Of a stretch of DNA of 43,564 nt, positions 19,286 to 33,136 are shown piece after piece. Under the pieces are notes generated by a model. That model ran no database searches and was not told where the DNA came from. It saw only the letters and a list, made by a program, of their open reading frames with translations. Every line of letters starts with the position of its first letter. The first letter of the stretch is position 1. The translations under genes were made by a program, and so were the position numbers. Where the stretch lies: the NCBI GenBank assembly GCA_903905455.1, contig CAIVGN010000128.1:1-43564 (forward strand), written 5' to 3'. The DNA is from an uncultured Archangium sp. Its GTDB lineage: Bacteria > Myxococcota > Myxococcia > Myxococcales > Myxococcaceae.

Positions 19286-19618
19286 ATGCGCTCCTCGGTC
19301 CTCAACCTCCTCCCGCCCCCCCTGCGCCGCTCCCTGACGAAGATGGGCGGAGACCTGGCGCTGGCGCGGCGCAAGCGGAGGCTCACCAGCGCGATGATGG
19401 CCGAGCGCGTCGGCGTCTCGAAGAGCACCTACCTGCGCCTCGAGAAGGGCGACCCGACGGTGTCGCTGGGCGCCTATGCGATGGCGCTCTTCGTGCTCGG
19501 CTTCGGCGCGGCGTTGGGTGAGCTCGTCGATCCCGGGAGGGATGAGCAGGGCCTGCTGCTCGACGCGCAGCGGTCTCCGAAGCGAGTTCGGGTGAAGAAG
19601 GAACCGACCGCCCTATGA
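19286..19618 (+). CDS. hipB: HipB-type antitoxin (Xre helix-turn-helix)
   Basis: 110 residues. The helix-turn-helix is at about 23-60: LALARRKRRLTSAMMAERVG, SKSTYLRLEKGDPTVSLGAY. The C-terminal tail is basic (RSPKRVRVKKE). The stop overlaps the hipA start by four bases (ATGA). The N-terminal residues LLPPPLRRSLTKMGGDLALA fit the family, so the ATG at 19286 is kept although no Shine-Dalgarno sequence precedes it; ATG 19343 is the alternative. It would bind HipA and the palindrome upstream to repress the operon. Confidence 0.88.
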   Translation: MRSSVLNLLPPPLRRSLTKMGGDLALARRKRRLTSAMMAERVGVSKSTYLRLEKGDPTVSLGAYAMALFVLGFGAALGELVDPGRDEQGLLLDAQRSPKRVRVKKEPTAL

Positions 19619-20895
19619 GACGAACCATCGGAGTCTTCATCGGCCAGGGCCCGCGGCGCGTGGGGTCGATCCACTTCGACGCAGCCGGAGCCAGGGAGAG
19701 CGCGGCCTTCCAGTACGACGCCGCGTGGTTGGAGGCGCCCGACCGCTTTGCGCTCGCGCCCACCCTGCCCCTGGTCGCCGGCGCCCAGTTCCACCGCAAA
19801 CCGAAGGACGGCTCGGTCTTTCACGCCCCCATCGCCGACACCGAGCCCGATGGCTGGGGACGTCGGGTCATCCTTCGGGACTCCGCCAAGCAGCGACAGG
19901 CCGCGCGTCGCAGTGGCACGCGAGACGGAGCGAGGGCCCCCCTGGGGTCGCTCGACTTCCTGCTCGCGGTCGACGACTTCAGCCGCGCCGGAGCGCTGCG
20001 CTTTCAGGACGAGCAGGCGGTGTTTCAGCGCGCCCCGGAGGACGGTCGGCGCACCGCGCCTCCTCTGATCGAGTTGGGACTGCTGCTCAGCGCGACGCGC
20101 GCCGTGGAGAACAACACCGAGACAGCGGCCGATCTCGCCTTTCTGCGCGGGCGCGGCACCTCGCTCGGGGGCGCGCGACCGAAGTGCAGCGTGATCGACG
20201 AGAAGGGCCAACTGTCCATCGGCAAGTTCCCGAGCGTTACCGACGAGCGGGCGGTGACCAGGGGAGAGGTGCTCGCGCTGCGACTGGCCGCCGCGGCGAA
20301 GATCCGGGCCGCCGAGGCGCACGTCGTCGACAGCGATGGGAGCCCCGTGGCGCTCATTCGCCGGTTCGATCGCGCGCCGGGCGGCAAGCGGCTCATGTAC
20401 GTCTCGGCGGCCACGATGCTGGGGGTCGCGCCGGGTGACACGACGGAACACACCTACACGGAGATCGTCGACGCCCTTCGCGTGCACGGCGCCGCGGCCC
20501 AGGAAGACATCGAGGAACTCTGGCGACGGGTGGCGTTCTCGATCTTGATCACCAACGTCGATGACCACCTGCTCAACCACGGCTTCCTCCACGTCGAGAG
20601 CGGCAAGTGGCGCCTGTCGCCGGCCTTCGACCTGAACCCGTTTCCCGAGCGCGTGCGGGAGTTGAAGACGTGGATCTCCGAGGACACGGGGCCGGAGGCG
20701 TCGGTGGCGGCGCTGCTCTCGGTCATCAAGTACTTCCGCATCTCGTCGGCACGAGCGAAGCAGATCCTCAGGGAGGTCGAGCACGCGGTGTCTGGATGGC
20801 GGAAGACCGGTCGCGCGCTCGGCATGAGCAGCGCTGAGCTCGATCAGTTCGAAGAGGCCTTCGAACATTCAGAGCGGAGCGCTGCCGCCCGCTGA
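19615..20895 (+). CDS. hipA: HipA-family serine/threonine kinase toxin
   Basis: 426 residues. The kinase features of HipA are all visible: Gly-rich loop GTSLGGARPK (181-190), Lys204 in SIGKF, the RRFDR segment (249-253), catalytic loop NVDDHLLNHGFL (314-325) with Asp316/Asp317 and Asn321, and the DFG-like AFDLNP with Asp339. N-terminal beta-rich HipA_N-like part: VFIGQGPRRVGSIHF. HipA phosphorylates glutamyl-tRNA synthetase or another tRNA synthetase and induces dormancy. The catalytic residues look intact, so it should be active. Codon use matches its neighbours, so no recent transfer is evident. Confidence 0.93.
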   Translation: MRRTIGVFIGQGPRRVGSIHFDAAGARESAAFQYDAAWLEAPDRFALAPTLPLVAGAQFHRKPKDGSVFHAPIADTEPDGWGRRVILRDSAKQRQAARRSGTRDGARAPLGSLDFLLAVDDFSRAGALRFQDEQAVFQRAPEDGRRTAPPLIELGLLLSATRAVENNTETAADLAFLRGRGTSLGGARPKCSVIDEKGQLSIGKFPSVTDERAVTRGEVLALRLAAAAKIRAAEAHVVDSDGSPVALIRRFDRAPGGKRLMYVSAATMLGVAPGDTTEHTYTEIVDALRVHGAAAQEDIEELWRRVAFSILITNVDDHLLNHGFLHVESGKWRLSPAFDLNPFPERVRELKTWISEDTGPEASVAALLSVIKYFRISSARAKQILREVEHAVSGWRKTGRALGMSSAELDQFEEAFEHSERSAAAR

Positions 20896-20909: not shown

Positions 20910-21401
20910 TCAGGCCGACAGCCCGGACAGAAGCAGCGACCAGACTTCGTGCCGCTCTCGCTGCCCATCCGTTGAAATGCCCGCTGCACGCTGCTGGACG
21001 CGGTGCGCCACCACCGAACTCACGGTCGACTCCGCGGCTTCGTGGGCGCGACTGAGGCTCTTGATCGGTACGCGCCAAACTTCGAGGCATGCGTCGAGTT
21101 CCTCGACTGCATCCATGAGCTCTTCCGCGCCGGGGAACGCCCACTCGGCAGCCACGATGATCTGAGGCGTCGTGCCGCTGACGACGCCGCGGACGGGCGT
21201 GAAATCCCAGCTCGAGTTCAGCTCCAACTGCCCGATGGCGCGGACCATCAGCTCGCGAAGAAACTGCTCGAGTTCCCTGCGTGTCATCGCCGCGAAGAGC
21301 GCCACCAGCGAACGTTCGCTCGGGCCCGCGGCTTCCCACGACGATTGCTCGAGCGCCGACCGAAGCGCTGCCTGCACCGAGGCCTCGCGGAGGTCGCTCA
21401 T
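20910..21401 (-). CDS. Protein of unknown function, 163 residues
   Basis: Starts at the ATG at 21401, which overlaps the stop of the lipoprotein gene before it by four bases. Mostly helical, with one beta-rich middle (SSWDFTPVRGVVSGTTPQII), no signal peptide, membrane helix or recognised motif. The first part (SERSLVALFAAMTRRELEQF) is amphipathic. Likely cytoplasmic and co-expressed with the lipoprotein and the EcsC-like protein. It converges on hipA with a 14-base gap. No family recognised. Confidence 0.7.
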   Translation of the reverse strand: MSDLREASVQAALRSALEQSSWEAAGPSERSLVALFAAMTRRELEQFLRELMVRAIGQLELNSSWDFTPVRGVVSGTTPQIIVAAEWAFPGAEELMDAVEELDACLEVWRVPIKSLSRAHEAAESTVSSVVAHRVQQRAAGISTDGQRERHEVWSLLLSGLSA

Positions 21402-21655
21402 CGTCGCTGCAGCGTCCGCGGCCCGGAGACCATCTTCGGCATGTCGTCGGCGTCGAGCTCGTATTCGGCTTCCTGCCAGCACCCGCGCGCGAGGTAGCGG
21501 TTGTCCGTGCCGGGAACCACGCTGACCTTCACCCCGAACGTGTGGCAGCCGAGATCTCGCGCCGCGCGCTTGCGCAGCCGCGTGCTCTTGAACGCGCAGC
21601 CCGAGAGTACCAGCGCGCCCACGCACGCCCCCACCGCCAACCGTCGAAGCCTCAT
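21398..21655 (-). CDS. Small lipoprotein
   Basis: 85 residues. Signal peptide with lipobox LVLSGC, so Cys20 would be lipidated (MRLRRLAVGACVGALVLSGC). The mature part is basic at first (KSTRLRKRAARD), then has two further Cys (LGCHTFG, RGCWQEAEYE) that could form a disulfide. Nine bases separate it from the EcsC-like gene. Unknown role at the cell envelope. Confidence 0.8.
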   Translation of the reverse strand: MRLRRLAVGACVGALVLSGCAFKSTRLRKRAARDLGCHTFGVKVSVVPGTDNRYLARGCWQEAEYELDADDMPKMVSGPRTLQRR

Positions 21656-21664
21656 CCGGCGCTC

Positions 21665-22285
21665 TTAGTGCCCCGAGGCCTTCTTTGTCTTCTCGTGGGC
21701 GTGCACCCAGCCGTCGTAGTGCCGGATGGCCGAGTCACCGACCTGCTGAATGTGCTGGTTGTTGAGGTACGCAGAAATCGGCGCCGCCACCAGCGGCATG
21801 GCCTTGGACAACGACTTGAGGCCGCCCTTCGCCAGCAACATCGCCGCGACGCTGCCCAGCACTCGCGGGCTCGCGCGCTGCACCGGGCCAATGCCGTTGG
21901 CGTAGCCGAGGAGATCGATGACCTCCTGCCGCTCGCGCTCGCTCTTGAGCGGCATCTTGAACACCGTCGCCACCTCGGTGAGCAGCGCCACCTGCAGGTA
22001 CAACATGCCCACCAGGTCCAGCGGCACCGTCACCGCGCCGAACACGCCCGACACGCCGCCCACCAGCGACGCCACGCCCTTCTTGCTGTCGATGAGGTGC
22101 TGGCTCAGCTCGCGCGGGCCGGCCGAGGGGTAGCGCTTCTGCAGCGCGTCCACCCGGGTGCGCGCGCGCACGGCCTCCTGGTCGATGAGGTCGGACAGCT
22201 TCTCGTTGCTCAGTTGGCGCAGGCGCCTCGGCGACAGCTTGCGGACCACCTTCACCTGTTCGAGGAGCGGATCAAAGAAGCCCAT
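21665..22285 (-). CDS. EcsC-like membrane-associated protein
   Basis: 206 residues. After an amphipathic N-terminus (LLEQVKVVRKLSPRRLRQLS) there is a hydrophobic region typical of EcsC-family proteins: GVASLVGGVSGVFGAVTVPL, then DLVGMLYLQVALLTEVATVF, at about 70-110. A second hydrophobic piece is near 140-170 (PRVLGSVAAMLLAKGG). EcsC proteins are of unclear biochemical function and named after a B. subtilis ABC-exporter operon. Same strand as the hook-like lipoprotein upstream (72-base gap with a hairpin) and coupled to the two genes downstream. Confidence 0.75.
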   Translation of the reverse strand: MGFFDPLLEQVKVVRKLSPRRLRQLSNEKLSDLIDQEAVRARTRVDALQKRYPSAGPRELSQHLIDSKKGVASLVGGVSGVFGAVTVPLDLVGMLYLQVALLTEVATVFKMPLKSERERQEVIDLLGYANGIGPVQRASPRVLGSVAAMLLAKGGLKSLSKAMPLVAAPISAYLNNQHIQQVGDSAIRHYDGWVHAHEKTKKASGH

Positions 22286-22310: not shown

Positions 22311-22359
22311 GAAACAGTTCCACCTGTCCCGCCCGGTCGCTCAGGAAAGGTGCTGTTTC
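22311..22359 (-). terminator. Hairpin at the stop codon of the hook-like gene
   Basis: GAAACAG (22311-22317) pairs with CTGTTTC (22353-22359), and CACCT/AGGTG extend the stem with a small bulge. On the minus-strand transcript the stem begins inside the stop codon of the hook-like gene. There is no T run after it, so it may be a weak terminator, an mRNA-end stabiliser, or a structure between two co-transcribed genes. Confidence 0.4.
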
Positions 22360-23437
22360 ACTTCGGCGCGGGGAAACAGCGGTGCTCGCCCGACGGGAGC
22401 TGCTCCAGCGCAAACGAGATGAGCGAGCCGAGCCCACCATCACCGGGCCGGCCGAGGATCGCCTCGCCCGACTCCGCGCTCGACAGCAGCAGGTCATGGT
22501 TCACGGCGTGAAGGCCGGTGGGAAAGGGGAACCTCGCCAGCGCCACCTGGCCCAGCGTGAAGACGTGGCCGTTGCTGTAGCGCCCCTCGAGGCGGCCGGA
22601 GAGGTCGATGCTGAAGTCCAGGAGCAACCCCATGGGGTAGCCGTCCTGCGCGAGGAAGCTCGTCGTGCTCGGCGACGAGAACCCGGTGACGCCCTCGAGC
22701 CCGCCGCCGCCGAGCGAGGTCGGGAGGCCGAAGTCGAAGGTGAGCGCTTGAGGCGCGCTCGCGCCCAGCGGCGTGAAGTCGCTGCGTTGCGACACCTGGC
22801 GCAGTCTCCCCTGGTCATCGAAGTCGAGGCTGCCGGTCGCGACCTCCTGCAGCATGCCCGGCGCGCCTCCCTCCAGCAGGACGCCGTCAGCCATGGCGTG
22901 AAACGCCCACGAGCCGGGGCCCGTCCGATTCCAGAACAACTCCACCTCGTGCGCGCGGCCCAGCAGGTCGTAGATGGTCAGCGTTGACGAGGAGTTCGCC
23001 GTGACCTGGGGACCCGACGGGTCGAAGACCTGCACCGGTGCGCTGGCATCGAGGTTGGCGTGGACCGTGACGTTCTGGGTGGGCTGCGGCGGCTGAACCG
23101 AAGGGCCCACCTCGAGCGCCGTCACGAGGGTCGAGCCGGCCATGAACCCCTGCAAGCGGTAGGGCCCGGCGCCGCGCAGGAAGCCCTCGCCGTCGACGTC
23201 GAAGTGGCCGTTGCGCGTGTAGACGACCGAGCCGCGGTCCTCGAGTTGGAAGAAGCCGGAACCCGACAACGCGAGGTCTGTGGGGTGCATCGTCTCCACG
23301 AGAGCCCCCTGGCGGTAGGCGTCGCTGCCCAGCAGCAAGCTGCAGCCCGCCTCGACGGCCCAGGCAGGTTCAGCGGTCGAACCAGGAAGCACCGCGCCGC
23401 ACCCGCTCAACAACACCACCCAGGCCCACCTGTGCAT
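22358..23437 (-). CDS. FlgE (flagellar hook)-like lipoprotein
   Basis: 359 residues from the ATG at 23437; a frame extending 17 codons further lacks support. MHRWAWVVLLSGCGA is a lipoprotein signal with Cys13. The mature part follows FlgE domain order. It has the hook/rod D1 entry (TDLALSGSGFFQLEDRGS, then YTRNGHFDVDGEGFL, about 53-87). It has the FlgE D2 domain (SSSTLTIYDLLGRAHEVELF, about 149-168, and GSWAFHAMADG). It has the second D1 half with FLAQDGYPMG, YSNGHVFTLGQVALARF and PGDGGLGSLISFALEQ (about 261-346). Both D0 helices needed to assemble a hook are gone: the signal replaces the first, and the chain stops before the second. No other flagellar genes are nearby. It looks like an exapted hook domain displayed on a membrane. 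Confidence 0.88.
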   Translation of the reverse strand: MHRWAWVVLLSGCGAVLPGSTAEPAWAVEAGCSLLLGSDAYRQGALVETMHPTDLALSGSGFFQLEDRGSVVYTRNGHFDVDGEGFLRGAGPYRLQGFMAGSTLVTALEVGPSVQPPQPTQNVTVHANLDASAPVQVFDPSGPQVTANSSSTLTIYDLLGRAHEVELFWNRTGPGSWAFHAMADGVLLEGGAPGMLQEVATGSLDFDDQGRLRQVSQRSDFTPLGASAPQALTFDFGLPTSLGGGGLEGVTGFSSPSTTSFLAQDGYPMGLLLDFSIDLSGRLEGRYSNGHVFTLGQVALARFPFPTGLHAVNHDLLLSSAESGEAILGRPGDGGLGSLISFALEQLPSGEHRCFPAPK

Positions 23438-26137: not shown

Positions 26138-27028
26138 ATGAAGCTCGAGACGCCGCTGTCGAAGAAGCTGGGCCTCAAGTACCCGTTCGTCGCCGCCCCC
26201 ATGTTCCTCATCTCCAACAAGGAGATGGTGCTCGCCTGCGCCGAGGCGGGGATCCTGGGGTGCATGCCGTCGCTCAACGCGCGCACCCCGGAACAGTTCC
26301 GCGAAGACCTCGCGTGGCTCCGCGCGAAGACGGACAAGCCCATCGGCATCAACCTGACCATCGGCCTCACGCCGCCCGAGCGCATCGAGCAGGACCTCGC
26401 CGCGTGCCTCGAGTTCGACGTGCCGGTGCTCGTCACCAGCTACGGCAACCCCACCGAGCTGGTGAAGCGCGCGCACGAGAAGCAGCGCCTGGTGTTCCAC
26501 GACGTCATCTCGCTGCAGCACGGGAAGAAGGCCGTGGGCGCGGGGGTGGACGCGATCATCGCCGTGGGCGCGGGCGCCGGGGGCCACGCGGGGCGCATCT
26601 CCCCCTTCGTGCTCGTGCCGTGGCTCAAGGAAGAACTCAAGGTGCCGATCATCGCCGCCGGCTGCATCAGTGACGGGCGCCAGGTGGTCGCCTCGCTGAG
26701 CCTGGGCGCCGAGCTCTGCTACCTGGGCACCCGGTTCATCGCCTCGACCGAGTGCGGGGCCGTCGACGCGTACAAGAAGATGGTCGTCGACGCCGGGCCG
26801 GAAGACGTCGTCTACACCGACGCCGTGTCGGGCATTCACGCCAACTTCTTGAAGGCCACCGTGCCCGAGAACTTCGTCGCCGACCGCTCGCACGAAGGCG
26901 CGAAGCGCTGGAAGGACATCTGGAGCGCGGGGCAAGGCGTGGGCCTCATCCACGAGATCAAGCCCATCGGGGCCATCGTCGAAGACCTCGCGCGCGAGGC
27001 CCACGACACCCTGCAGGGGTTGCTGTGA
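26138..27028 (+). CDS. Nitronate monooxygenase / NPD-type FMN oxidoreductase
   Basis: 296 residues from the ATG at 26138, with GGTGGAG as ribosome-binding site at about 26121-26127. TIM-barrel FMN protein: FVAAPMFLISNKEMVLACAEAG, a Met-rich substrate lid region, GINLTIGLTPPERIEQDL, the phosphate/FMN-binding GAGAGGHAGR at about 147-156, and IIAAGCISDGRQV with SLGAELCYLGTRF. Nitronate monooxygenases oxidise nitronates such as 3-nitropropionate; related enzymes act as enoyl-ACP reductases (FabK), so substrate is not certain. Coupled to the deformylase gene by a four-base overlap. The divergent Gre-like gene starts 19 bases upstream. Confidence 0.9.
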   Translation: MKLETPLSKKLGLKYPFVAAPMFLISNKEMVLACAEAGILGCMPSLNARTPEQFREDLAWLRAKTDKPIGINLTIGLTPPERIEQDLAACLEFDVPVLVTSYGNPTELVKRAHEKQRLVFHDVISLQHGKKAVGAGVDAIIAVGAGAGGHAGRISPFVLVPWLKEELKVPIIAAGCISDGRQVVASLSLGAELCYLGTRFIASTECGAVDAYKKMVVDAGPEDVVYTDAVSGIHANFLKATVPENFVADRSHEGAKRWKDIWSAGQGVGLIHEIKPIGAIVEDLAREAHDTLQGLL

Positions 27029-27684
27029 GGGTCGCGCTCGTCGCGCTGGTCGTGTTGAGCGGGTGCGTGAAGTCGGTGCCGGGAGGCAAGGTCATGGAAG
27101 AGAACCCCATCGTGCAGACCGGGGCCCCGGTGCTCCGCGCGAAGGCGCAGGACGTTCCCGTCGAGCAGATCGCCACGCCCGAGTTCCAGGCGCTGCTCAG
27201 CCGGATGATCGACACCATGCGCCAGGCCCCGGGCGTCGGGCTGGCGGCGCCGCAAATCGGCGTGCCCTGGCGCGTGCTGGTGCTCGAAGACCGGGAAGAG
27301 TTGATGGCGTCGCTCAGCGAGGCCGAGCGGGCGGAGCGCATGCGCGTGGTGGTCCCGGTGCGCGTGTTCATCAACCCCACGCTCACCCTCATCGGAGAAG
27401 AGAAGGCCACGTTCTTCGAGGGGTGCCTCTCCGTCGCCGGGTTCGCCGGGTTGGTGGAGCGGTCGCTGGAGGTCGAGGTCTCGGGGCTCGACGAGAAGGG
27501 GCAGCCGGCGACCTGGCGCGTGCGGGGCTGGCCCGCGCGCATCCTGCAGCACGAGGTCGATCACCTCGCGGGCACTCTCTACGTCGACCGCATGATGACC
27601 CGGAGCTTCGGGACGTTGCCCCAGGTCAAGGCGCGGTTCGGCGGGAAGCCCATCGAGCAGGTGCGGCGCGAGCTGGGGCTGTAG
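27025..27684 (+). CDS. def: Peptide deformylase with apparent lipoprotein signal
   Basis: 219 residues from the GTG at 27025, which overlaps the preceding stop (GTGA). All three deformylase motifs are intact: GVGLAAPQIG (70-79), EGCLS (132-136) with Cys134, and QHEVDHL (175-181) with His176, Glu177 and His180, so it should remove N-formyl groups from nascent proteins. The odd part is the first 14 residues, VRVALVALVVLSGC, a short lipoprotein signal with lipobox LSGC. An internal ATG at 27094 has a good GGGAGG ribosome-binding site seven bases ahead and would give a normal cytosolic enzyme of 196 residues. Either or both starts may be used. Confidence 0.85.
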   Translation: MRVALVALVVLSGCVKSVPGGKVMEENPIVQTGAPVLRAKAQDVPVEQIATPEFQALLSRMIDTMRQAPGVGLAAPQIGVPWRVLVLEDREELMASLSEAERAERMRVVVPVRVFINPTLTLIGEEKATFFEGCLSVAGFAGLVERSLEVEVSGLDEKGQPATWRVRGWPARILQHEVDHLAGTLYVDRMMTRSFGTLPQVKARFGGKPIEQVRRELGL

Positions 27685-31474: not shown

Positions 31475-33136
31475 ATGTGCATGAGAATGCTCAAGCCGCT
31501 GCTGCTGGTGGTCACGCTCGCCGCGTGTGGACCCGCGGTCGAACTCGACGCGGACGAGTATGGGACGACCTCTCAGGACCTCGTGGTCTGCGCCGCCGGC
31601 CCGACCGTTCAGGGCATCGACGTGAGCACCTACCAGGGAACCATCAACTGGGCGCAGGTGCACGCCGCGGGAAAAGAGTTCGGGATTGCCCGCATCGGTG
31701 ATGGCCTGGGCAAGGACCCGACCTTCCCCGGCCACTGGGCGGCGATGAAGGCCAACGGGATGATCCGCGGCGCGTACCAGTTCTTCCGCCCCACGCTCGA
31801 CCCCATCGCCCAGGCCGACCTGGTGGTCGCCGCGGTGGGCCGCCTGGGGCCCGGCGACCTCCCGGTCACACTCGACGTGGAGGCCGGCGGCACCCTGCCC
31901 GCCCCCGCCACCTACAACACGCGCATCCACCAGTGGGTCGACCGGGTGCAACTGGGCACGGGCAAGAAGCCCATCATCTACGTGGGCAAGTACTACTGGC
32001 CGAACATCAACACCGCCGACTTCGCCGGCTACCCGCTGTGGCACCCCCAGTACACGACGGCTGCCTGCCCCAACATCGCCAACGCCTGGAGCAGTTGGAA
32101 GATGTGGCAGTACCGCGGCGGCCCGGTGTCCGGCATTCCCGGGGGCACCTGCCCCGGCATCAACGGCTACGTCGACCTCGACGTCTTCAACGGCTCGCTC
32201 ACCGACTTGAAGGCCTTCGCCGGCGCGCAGACCTGCACCGCCCACTGCGAGGGCACGGTGATGGTCGACGCCGCCTGCGGGCGCGGGGACTGCGGCGCCT
32301 TCGGCTCGGGTTGCGTCAACGACGCCCTGGGCCTGCGCTGCGTCTTCAGCGCCTGCCCCGCGACCGGCGAGCGCGACGTGTGCCTCGACGACCAGCGCCT
32401 CGCCCACTGCAAGAACGGGGTGCTGCAGCCGCCCGGTGACTGCTCGGCCTTCGCCGCGCGGTGCTCGACGGCCGACGCCCCCACCGGCGCGCGCTGCGTC
32501 TCGCTGTTCTGCGCGGCGAGCATGACCGAGGTGCCCCAGCCTGGCGAAGGCTGCTGGCCGCAGAGCCCCGCGCGCATCGCCACCTGTGATGCCACCGGAG
32601 CGTTCAGCTTCACCGACTGCGCGGCCGGCGAGCAGTGCTCGGTGGTGGGCGGGGTGCACTGCGAGCCGAAGTTCTGCCCTGCCACCGGCACCCTCGACGT
32701 GTGCGACGGCGACACCGTGGCCCACTGCGCCGGGGGCCAGGTGGTCTCGGCCATCGACTGCGGCGCCTCGAGCGCGCGCTGCAGCCCGGCGGGTGGCGTG
32801 GCCCGCTGCGTGTCGCGCGACTGCGTGAGCGACGTGTCCCAGGTGCCGGTGGCTCACACCGCGTGCCTGCCCACCGGCTGGCTGGCCACCTGCGGCGACG
32901 ACGGCCGCGTCACCCAGGCCGCGCCCTGCGACCCGGGGCTGAGCTGCGTGGCCCTCGAGGGCCAGGCGAGCTGCACCGTGGGTCCCCCCGACGCGGGCGC
33001 GGCCATGGGCGCGGGTGAGACCGTCGACGGCGGCGTGGAGCCCATGCCAGTGAAGGGCCAGGGCTGCGGCTGCACCTCGGGTCCCGCCGCGGCGGCGGGG
33101 CTCCTGGCGCTCGGGCTGTTGCGGCGACGTCGCTGA
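31475..33136 (+). CDS. GH25 lysozyme-like lipoprotein with Cys-rich repeats and MYXO-CTERM end
   Basis: 553 residues; ATG 31481 is equally possible as start. MCMRMLKPLLLVVTLAACGP is a lipoprotein signal (Cys18). Residues about 45-250 are a glycoside hydrolase 25 muramidase: QGIDVSTYQGTINW at the first strand and the acid pair in VTLDVEAGG, which cleaves bacterial cell walls. The rest (about 255-525) holds repeated Cys-rich modules of the form CPATGERDVCLDDQRLAHCK, CPATGTLDVCDGDTVAHC and CVSxxV. The tail KGQGCGCTSGPAAAAGLLAL, then LLRRRR, is a MYXO-CTERM sorting signal. This suggests a surface-displayed enzyme that digests prey walls or remodels the cell's own wall. Confidence 0.93.
   Translation: MCMRMLKPLLLVVTLAACGPAVELDADEYGTTSQDLVVCAAGPTVQGIDVSTYQGTINWAQVHAAGKEFGIARIGDGLGKDPTFPGHWAAMKANGMIRGAYQFFRPTLDPIAQADLVVAAVGRLGPGDLPVTLDVEAGGTLPAPATYNTRIHQWVDRVQLGTGKKPIIYVGKYYWPNINTADFAGYPLWHPQYTTAACPNIANAWSSWKMWQYRGGPVSGIPGGTCPGINGYVDLDVFNGSLTDLKAFAGAQTCTAHCEGTVMVDAACGRGDCGAFGSGCVNDALGLRCVFSACPATGERDVCLDDQRLAHCKNGVLQPPGDCSAFAARCSTADAPTGARCVSLFCAASMTEVPQPGEGCWPQSPARIATCDATGAFSFTDCAAGEQCSVVGGVHCEPKFCPATGTLDVCDGDTVAHCAGGQVVSAIDCGASSARCSPAGGVARCVSRDCVSDVSQVPVAHTACLPTGWLATCGDDGRVTQAAPCDPGLSCVALEGQASCTVGPPDAGAAMGAGETVDGGVEPMPVKGQGCGCTSGPAAAAGLLALGLLRRRR

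Follow-up and report, generated by a model that had tools for sequence, protein, structure and literature searches.

Results

A lipoprotein-type copy of the hook gene

The window, by which we mean the whole 43,564-nucleotide stretch of DNA analysed, carries on its reverse strand (22358–23437) a gene with an ATG start and gene-like codon usage, whose 359-amino-acid product (P0001) is a lipoprotein-type paralogue of the flagellar hook protein FlgE that lacks D0. Pfam matches above the curated cut-offs placed the FlgE/F/G D1 domain at residues 56–127 (E = 8e-10), ahead of FlgE_D2 at residues 128–267 (E = 4e-19), and the NCBIfam match and a fold match to solved hooks agreed with this order, which an earlier note on this DNA had already read from the letters. 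From Pfam, alignment and fold match, the first half of D1 spans residues 40–121 (23075–23320, reverse strand); it is followed by D2, the outermost hook domain (residues 122–270; 22628–23074, reverse strand), which is 58% identical to that of the FlgE encoded in the same genome, and by the second half of D1 (residues 271–346; 22400–22627, reverse strand), which stops at ALEQ, the start of the C-terminal D0 helix in FlgE. The AlphaFold model (mean pLDDT 84.9, with unreliable tails at residues 1–39 and 350–359) matched the Salmonella hook 6k9q_Q with a Z score of 25.1 over 301 residues at 3.1 Å.

Only positions 65–374 of the 414 in the NCBIfam FlgE profile aligned to the product, so both D0 ends are absent, and the alignment showed each end replaced, with neither the N- and C-terminal D0 helices nor the Dc hairpin present. 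In FlgE these elements are required for polymerisation and for export through the flagellar channel. Judged by sequence, a lipoprotein signal with the lipobox L-S-G-C (LLSG/C) and glycine at +2 forms the N-terminus, MHRWAWVVLLSGCG; the earlier note's description of a lipoprotein signal where the N-terminal D0 helix should be, and of a missing C-terminal one, thus stands. The predicted signal peptide (residues 1–12, MHRWAWVVLLSG; 23402–23437, reverse strand) lies where the N-terminal D0 helix and Dc hairpin would be, and Cys13 (23399–23401, reverse strand) is the predicted lipidated +1 cysteine. Since the +2 residue is glycine, the inner-membrane Lys+2 signal of Myxococcus xanthus (PMC3222651) is lacking, and this residue is compatible with sorting to the outer membrane.

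The gene does not lie in the flgD-flgE position among flagellar genes, and the open reading frames read in the window, together with the neighbours scanned, are consistent with the earlier statement that the window holds no other flagellar gene, the flagellar set being on other contigs. Downstream on the same strand (20910–22285) are genes for an EcsC-family protein, a small lipoprotein and a protein of unknown function, which are possibly co-transcribed with the lipoprotein gene; this arrangement was not conserved at the other loci with lipoprotein-type copies. Further genes, all on the forward strand, encode a HipBA-type toxin-antitoxin pair made up of an HTH protein and then a HipA-like kinase (HipA_C, E = 1e-44; 19286–20895), a peptide-deformylase-like protein (EGCLS and HEVDH, by eye) with a lipoprotein signal, VVLSGC, at its start (27025–27684), and a protein that combines a lipoprotein signal and a lysozyme-like N-terminal region with a MYXO-CTERM-like C-terminus (CGC...RRRR, by eye; 31487–33136). 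A phage or viral origin of the lipoprotein gene was rejected after no match was found in phage records or viral contigs, and the plasmid matches, among those listed, were more distant FlgE-like sequences with at most 32.5% identity.

The host genome encodes a flagellum and a normal hook protein

The genome of the window (G000; 8.6 Mb, 97.8% complete) has a near-complete flagellar gene set. On contig C189, an operon runs from a sigma-54 regulator through flgB, flgC, fliE, fliF, fliG, fliH, fliI, fliJ, fliK, flgD and flgE to motA, motB, fliL, fliM, fliN, fliO, fliP, fliQ, fliR and flhB, and contig C81 carries flgF, flgG, flgA, flgH, flgI, flgJ, flgM, flgN, flgK, flgL, fliC and fliD. Profile searches backed FliF, FliG, FliI, FlgE, MotA, FliM, FliP, FlhB, FlgG, FlgH (L006:10202-10870), FlgI, FlgK and FliC, and the remaining genes on both contigs were identified by operon order and reading of their products. 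The resident FlgE (428 aa; L005:9310-10596) occupies the flgD-flgE place and has both D0 helices, so the gene at 22358–23437 is a second hook-like gene; its product is 48% identical to the resident protein, and 49% over D1–D2.

These results overturn the view of the earlier note that the host had lost its flagella: the flagellar genes that it proposed to look for, fliF among them, are there. They also dispose of the case that it had set against its own reading, a full flagellar set with this gene supplying the sole hook protein, because a normal FlgE is present as well.

Related copies are rare and confined to flagellated genomes

We surveyed 195 genomes of the Myxococcota, the phylum covered in depth, of which 49 carry FlgE_D2. 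Lipoprotein-type, D0-less FlgE copies were found in four of these 49 (G000, G002, G095 and G089), which belong to one family and two genera and are all flagellated, and no further copy was detected in the other 45; the family was represented by 96 genomes, 18 with an FlgE-like match. G003 and G004, of the same genus as G000 and with intact flgE, have no such copy. The sample of four includes two frameshifted copies (the frameshifts being real or errors), and all are derived from metagenome-assembled genomes (MAGs), with the possible exception of the window's own.

The copy in G002, an 'Archangium sp.' MAG (JAEUJS01) of the same genus as G000, is intact (L038:9008-10045) and has the lipobox LTAC. 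The copies of G000 and G002 comprise 345–359 codons and, at 43% mutual identity, have kept the lipobox and both cysteines. In G095 (JAUXRI01, genus g26) the copy lies upstream of and within L039:9344-10360 and has one frameshift, with a lipobox-like VCGC and the hook part in neighbouring frames. An eroded remnant with at least two frameshifts occupies L040:11862-13140 in G089 (also g26); its D1 pieces are closest to the other lipoprotein-type copies and its D2 piece to its own FlgE. The four loci share no gene neighbourhood, their surroundings being wholly different. Upstream sigma-54 sites were no more frequent than expected by chance in the window, L005, L006, L038 and L039, and no promoter or operon link between the lipoprotein-type genes and flagellar genes was found in this set.

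With type II signal peptides bearing a lipobox in both the window (LSGC) and G002 (LTAC), judged by sequence, the idea that a sequence error hides a normal D0 N-terminus was rejected as unlikely, the G002 copy coming from an independent MAG with the same architecture. Orthologues retaining the lipobox, which the earlier note had suggested looking for, thus exist, G095 having only the lipobox-like VCGC, a weaker fit to the rule L-[AST]-[GA]-C (PMC3222651). Extra FlgE_D2 matches in G050, G187 and G190 look, from coordinates only, like FlgE genes broken by a contig end or a frameshift. Another in G184 was rejected as a lipoprotein-type copy; it belongs to an 817-aa flagellin-like protein (L100:698-3148 on C335; Flagellin_C and Flagellin_IN) with an inserted FlgE_D2.

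The aligned lipoprotein-type copies have a common cysteine plan that comprises the +1 cysteine, one a little ahead of D1 and one at the extreme C-terminus straight after ALEQ, the G095 copy having two candidate N-side cysteines close to its frameshift, while 26 of 27 aligned FlgE sequences are cysteine-free. In the window's protein, Cys32 (23342–23344, reverse strand), just ahead of D1 in a stretch where all three aligned copies have a cysteine, is the predicted partner of Cys354 (22376–22378, reverse strand), which aligns near the C-terminus where the C-terminal D0 helix would be. In FlgE, both ends of D1 continue into the paired D0 helices (PMC6769732). The placement of the pair at the start of D1 and at the C-terminus, and its absence from nearly all FlgE, suggest that a disulfide probably substitutes for D0, and a Cys32–Cys354 bond would probably close D1–D2 in this way.

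The outer domain follows the resident hook

Identity to the cognate FlgE was markedly higher in D2 than in D1, at 81% versus 37% for the G095 copy (Fisher P = 3e-15), 58% versus 39% for the G000 copy (P = 0.001) and 61% versus 39% for the G002 copy (P = 0.0002), the last scored against the FlgE of G000 since only a fragment of G002's own FlgE is available. D1 identity of the copies to FlgE stayed within 37–40%, and no excess of D2 over D1 was seen between ordinary FlgE–FlgE pairs. A parallel pattern was observed for genus-specific hook residues, which were retained in D2 at 25/35 (G095), 13/32 (G000) and 11/32 (G002) positions, compared with 6/26, 2/27 and 4/24 in D1, and D2 residues in common with the hook of the other genus were rare (3–4 of 32–34).

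Trees of D2 likewise had the outer domain following the cognate FlgE, with the G095 copy falling within the g26 FlgE clade (100/100), beside the FlgE of G095 and G093 (96/84), and the copies of g1, the genus of G000 and G002, grouping with G000 FlgE (87/88). A single clade of lipoprotein-type copies was rejected in the D2 tree (AU P = 2.7e-7; 0.0005 in a quick tree), with D1 and D2 joined (P = 0.0126) and with the G000 copy left out (P = 0.023), which indicates either that the hook gene was duplicated independently, with D2 retained each time, or that the resident hook gene has renewed D2. In the D1 tree the three copies lay on one side (85/86, not significant), a grouping that may be an artefact of their very long branches. 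Substitution rates bear on this choice. In D2 versus D1, dS was 0.90 versus 1.18/1.09 for G095 and 0.57 versus 0.59/0.65 for G000, while dN was about 2–5 times lower in D2; because dS is near saturation, this rate contrast is rough, as are the dN/dS values between copies and FlgE (about 0.2–0.7 in D2 and 0.6–1.2 in D1). Lower dN at about equal dS points to purifying constraint on D2, and the similar dS makes a recent conversion of D2 less likely than duplications of the whole gene with later constraint on its D2.

The gene is, on its sequence, an FlgE paralogue that arose within flagellated lineages. The flagellar origin that the earlier note proposed is therefore upheld by the phylogeny, as is the conversion to a lipid-anchored protein by the lipobox-like cysteine in relatives and the constraint on D2; its picture of a relic in a flagellum-less glider has to be given up.

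Discussion

A proposed tethered mimic of the hook surface

The protein is most likely an envelope-anchored mimic of the outer surface of the hook, acting either as a decoy for hook-binding agents or as a partner of the hook. We give a probability of roughly 0.4 to the reading that a duplicated hook gene became such a mimic with decoy as its likeliest role; the stronger version, that the cell's own hook protein has repeatedly been made into a lipid-anchored, disulfide-clipped display of its outer domain, matched to the current hook and working against hook-binding phages or competitors, seems doubtful. The protein would be exported by Sec and not by the flagellar channel, lipidated and then sorted to the outer membrane, with a Cys32–Cys354 disulfide clipping the two ends otherwise joined by D0. 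Because the hook has D0 on its core side and D2 on its exterior, a tether at the D0 end would direct D2 away from the membrane, as it is directed away from the core in the hook, and the predicted lipid anchor, the lost D0 and the own-hook-like D2 together suggest that a piece of false hook is presented on the cell envelope. Outer-membrane lipoproteins may also face the periplasm, which counts against surface display. As a decoy, the protein would soak up agents that bind hooks, such as a phage or a factor of a competitor or predator. Hooks can serve, weakly at least, as a phage receptor, by analogy with phage chi, which binds polyhooks, though poorly (PMC9266447). Against a decoy, there is to our knowledge no phage or factor that exploits the hooks of these bacteria.

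In Salmonella hooks, D2 is the outermost domain and contacts D2 alone, along the 6-start line (PMC6769732). Since it touches nothing else apart from the medium, a hook-like outer surface is what has been preserved, and the feature concerned may be either the medium-facing side, as for a decoy or bait, or the D2–D2 face. The latter would suit a protein whose tethered D2 packs on the D2 of the hook and steadies or guides it, at its exit through the outer membrane or inside a putative membrane sheath. Such homotypic binding, through the only kind of contact known for D2 within the hook (PMC6769732), would likewise keep the sequence of D2 close to that of the cognate FlgE, and the +2 glycine agrees with the location; the copies, however, are missing from most flagellated relatives, G003 and G004 included, lie outside flagellar operons and have decayed in other genomes, which makes this role unlikely. 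An optional, fast-turnover decoy accounts better than a part of the flagellum for copies that occur patchily, that have arisen or been refreshed repeatedly, and that have decayed in sister lineages.

The same frameshifts, one in G095 and at least two in G089, and the fast evolution of D1 could instead mark a functionless duplicate seen at different stages of decay. We regard this as improbable, given the purifying selection on D2 and the intact copies of G000 and G002, which have diverged widely with lipobox and cysteines in place. A rather unlikely history, which concerns the origin of the protein and not what it displays, is that of a single old lipoprotein gene, its anchor and D1 of one origin and its D2 repeatedly overwritten from resident flgE by gene conversion (concerted evolution). 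The shared cysteine plan, the joining of the three copies in the D1 tree and the split affinities of the G089 remnant speak for it, but that joining may be a long-branch artefact, and dS, itself near saturation, shows no clear drop in D2 relative to D1 for G095 or G000. Finally, the hook fold might merely scaffold an adhesin or matrix protein unrelated to hooks. Alanine at +7 of the mature protein, a mark of matrix lipoproteins in M. xanthus (PMC3222651), is present in two of three copies (G002 and G095), and the genes sit away from flagellar ones; this reading leaves the retention of genus-specific hook residues in D2 unexplained and is decidedly improbable.

Relation to known proteins and significance

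The preferred reading, a mimic of the hook surface, concerns a protein with the D1–D2 fold and sequence of FlgE (PF07559 and PF22692; NF004238, TIGR03506) that differs in lacking the D0 helices and Dc hairpin, in having a Sec lipoprotein signal and two extra cysteines, and in being encoded outside the flagellar operon beside a normal FlgE. The second hook protein of Helicobacter pylori, FlgE2 (5npy; fold match to our model, Z = 19.0), is likewise an extra protein of the FlgE type in a bacterium with flagella, although we know of no FlgE2 with a lipobox. FlgH, the L-ring lipoprotein, is an outer-membrane lipoprotein of the flagellum that is unrelated in family and role. What defines the axial proteins of flagella is that D0 drives their polymerisation and that they are exported through the flagellum itself. 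In the flagellin-like protein of G184, the D2 of FlgE has also moved into another protein context, but that protein keeps the flagellin C-terminal region and is thus axial, whereas ours is a predicted lipoprotein. We found no precedent for a D0-less FlgE lipoprotein in open-access text.

If our reading is true, a Sec lipoprotein of which only the outer domain is held to the resident hook would represent a new reuse of a flagellar part, and its likeness to the hook would hint at hook-recognising agents that are yet to be discovered. Any binder of the hook of these bacteria should then also bind the lipoprotein.
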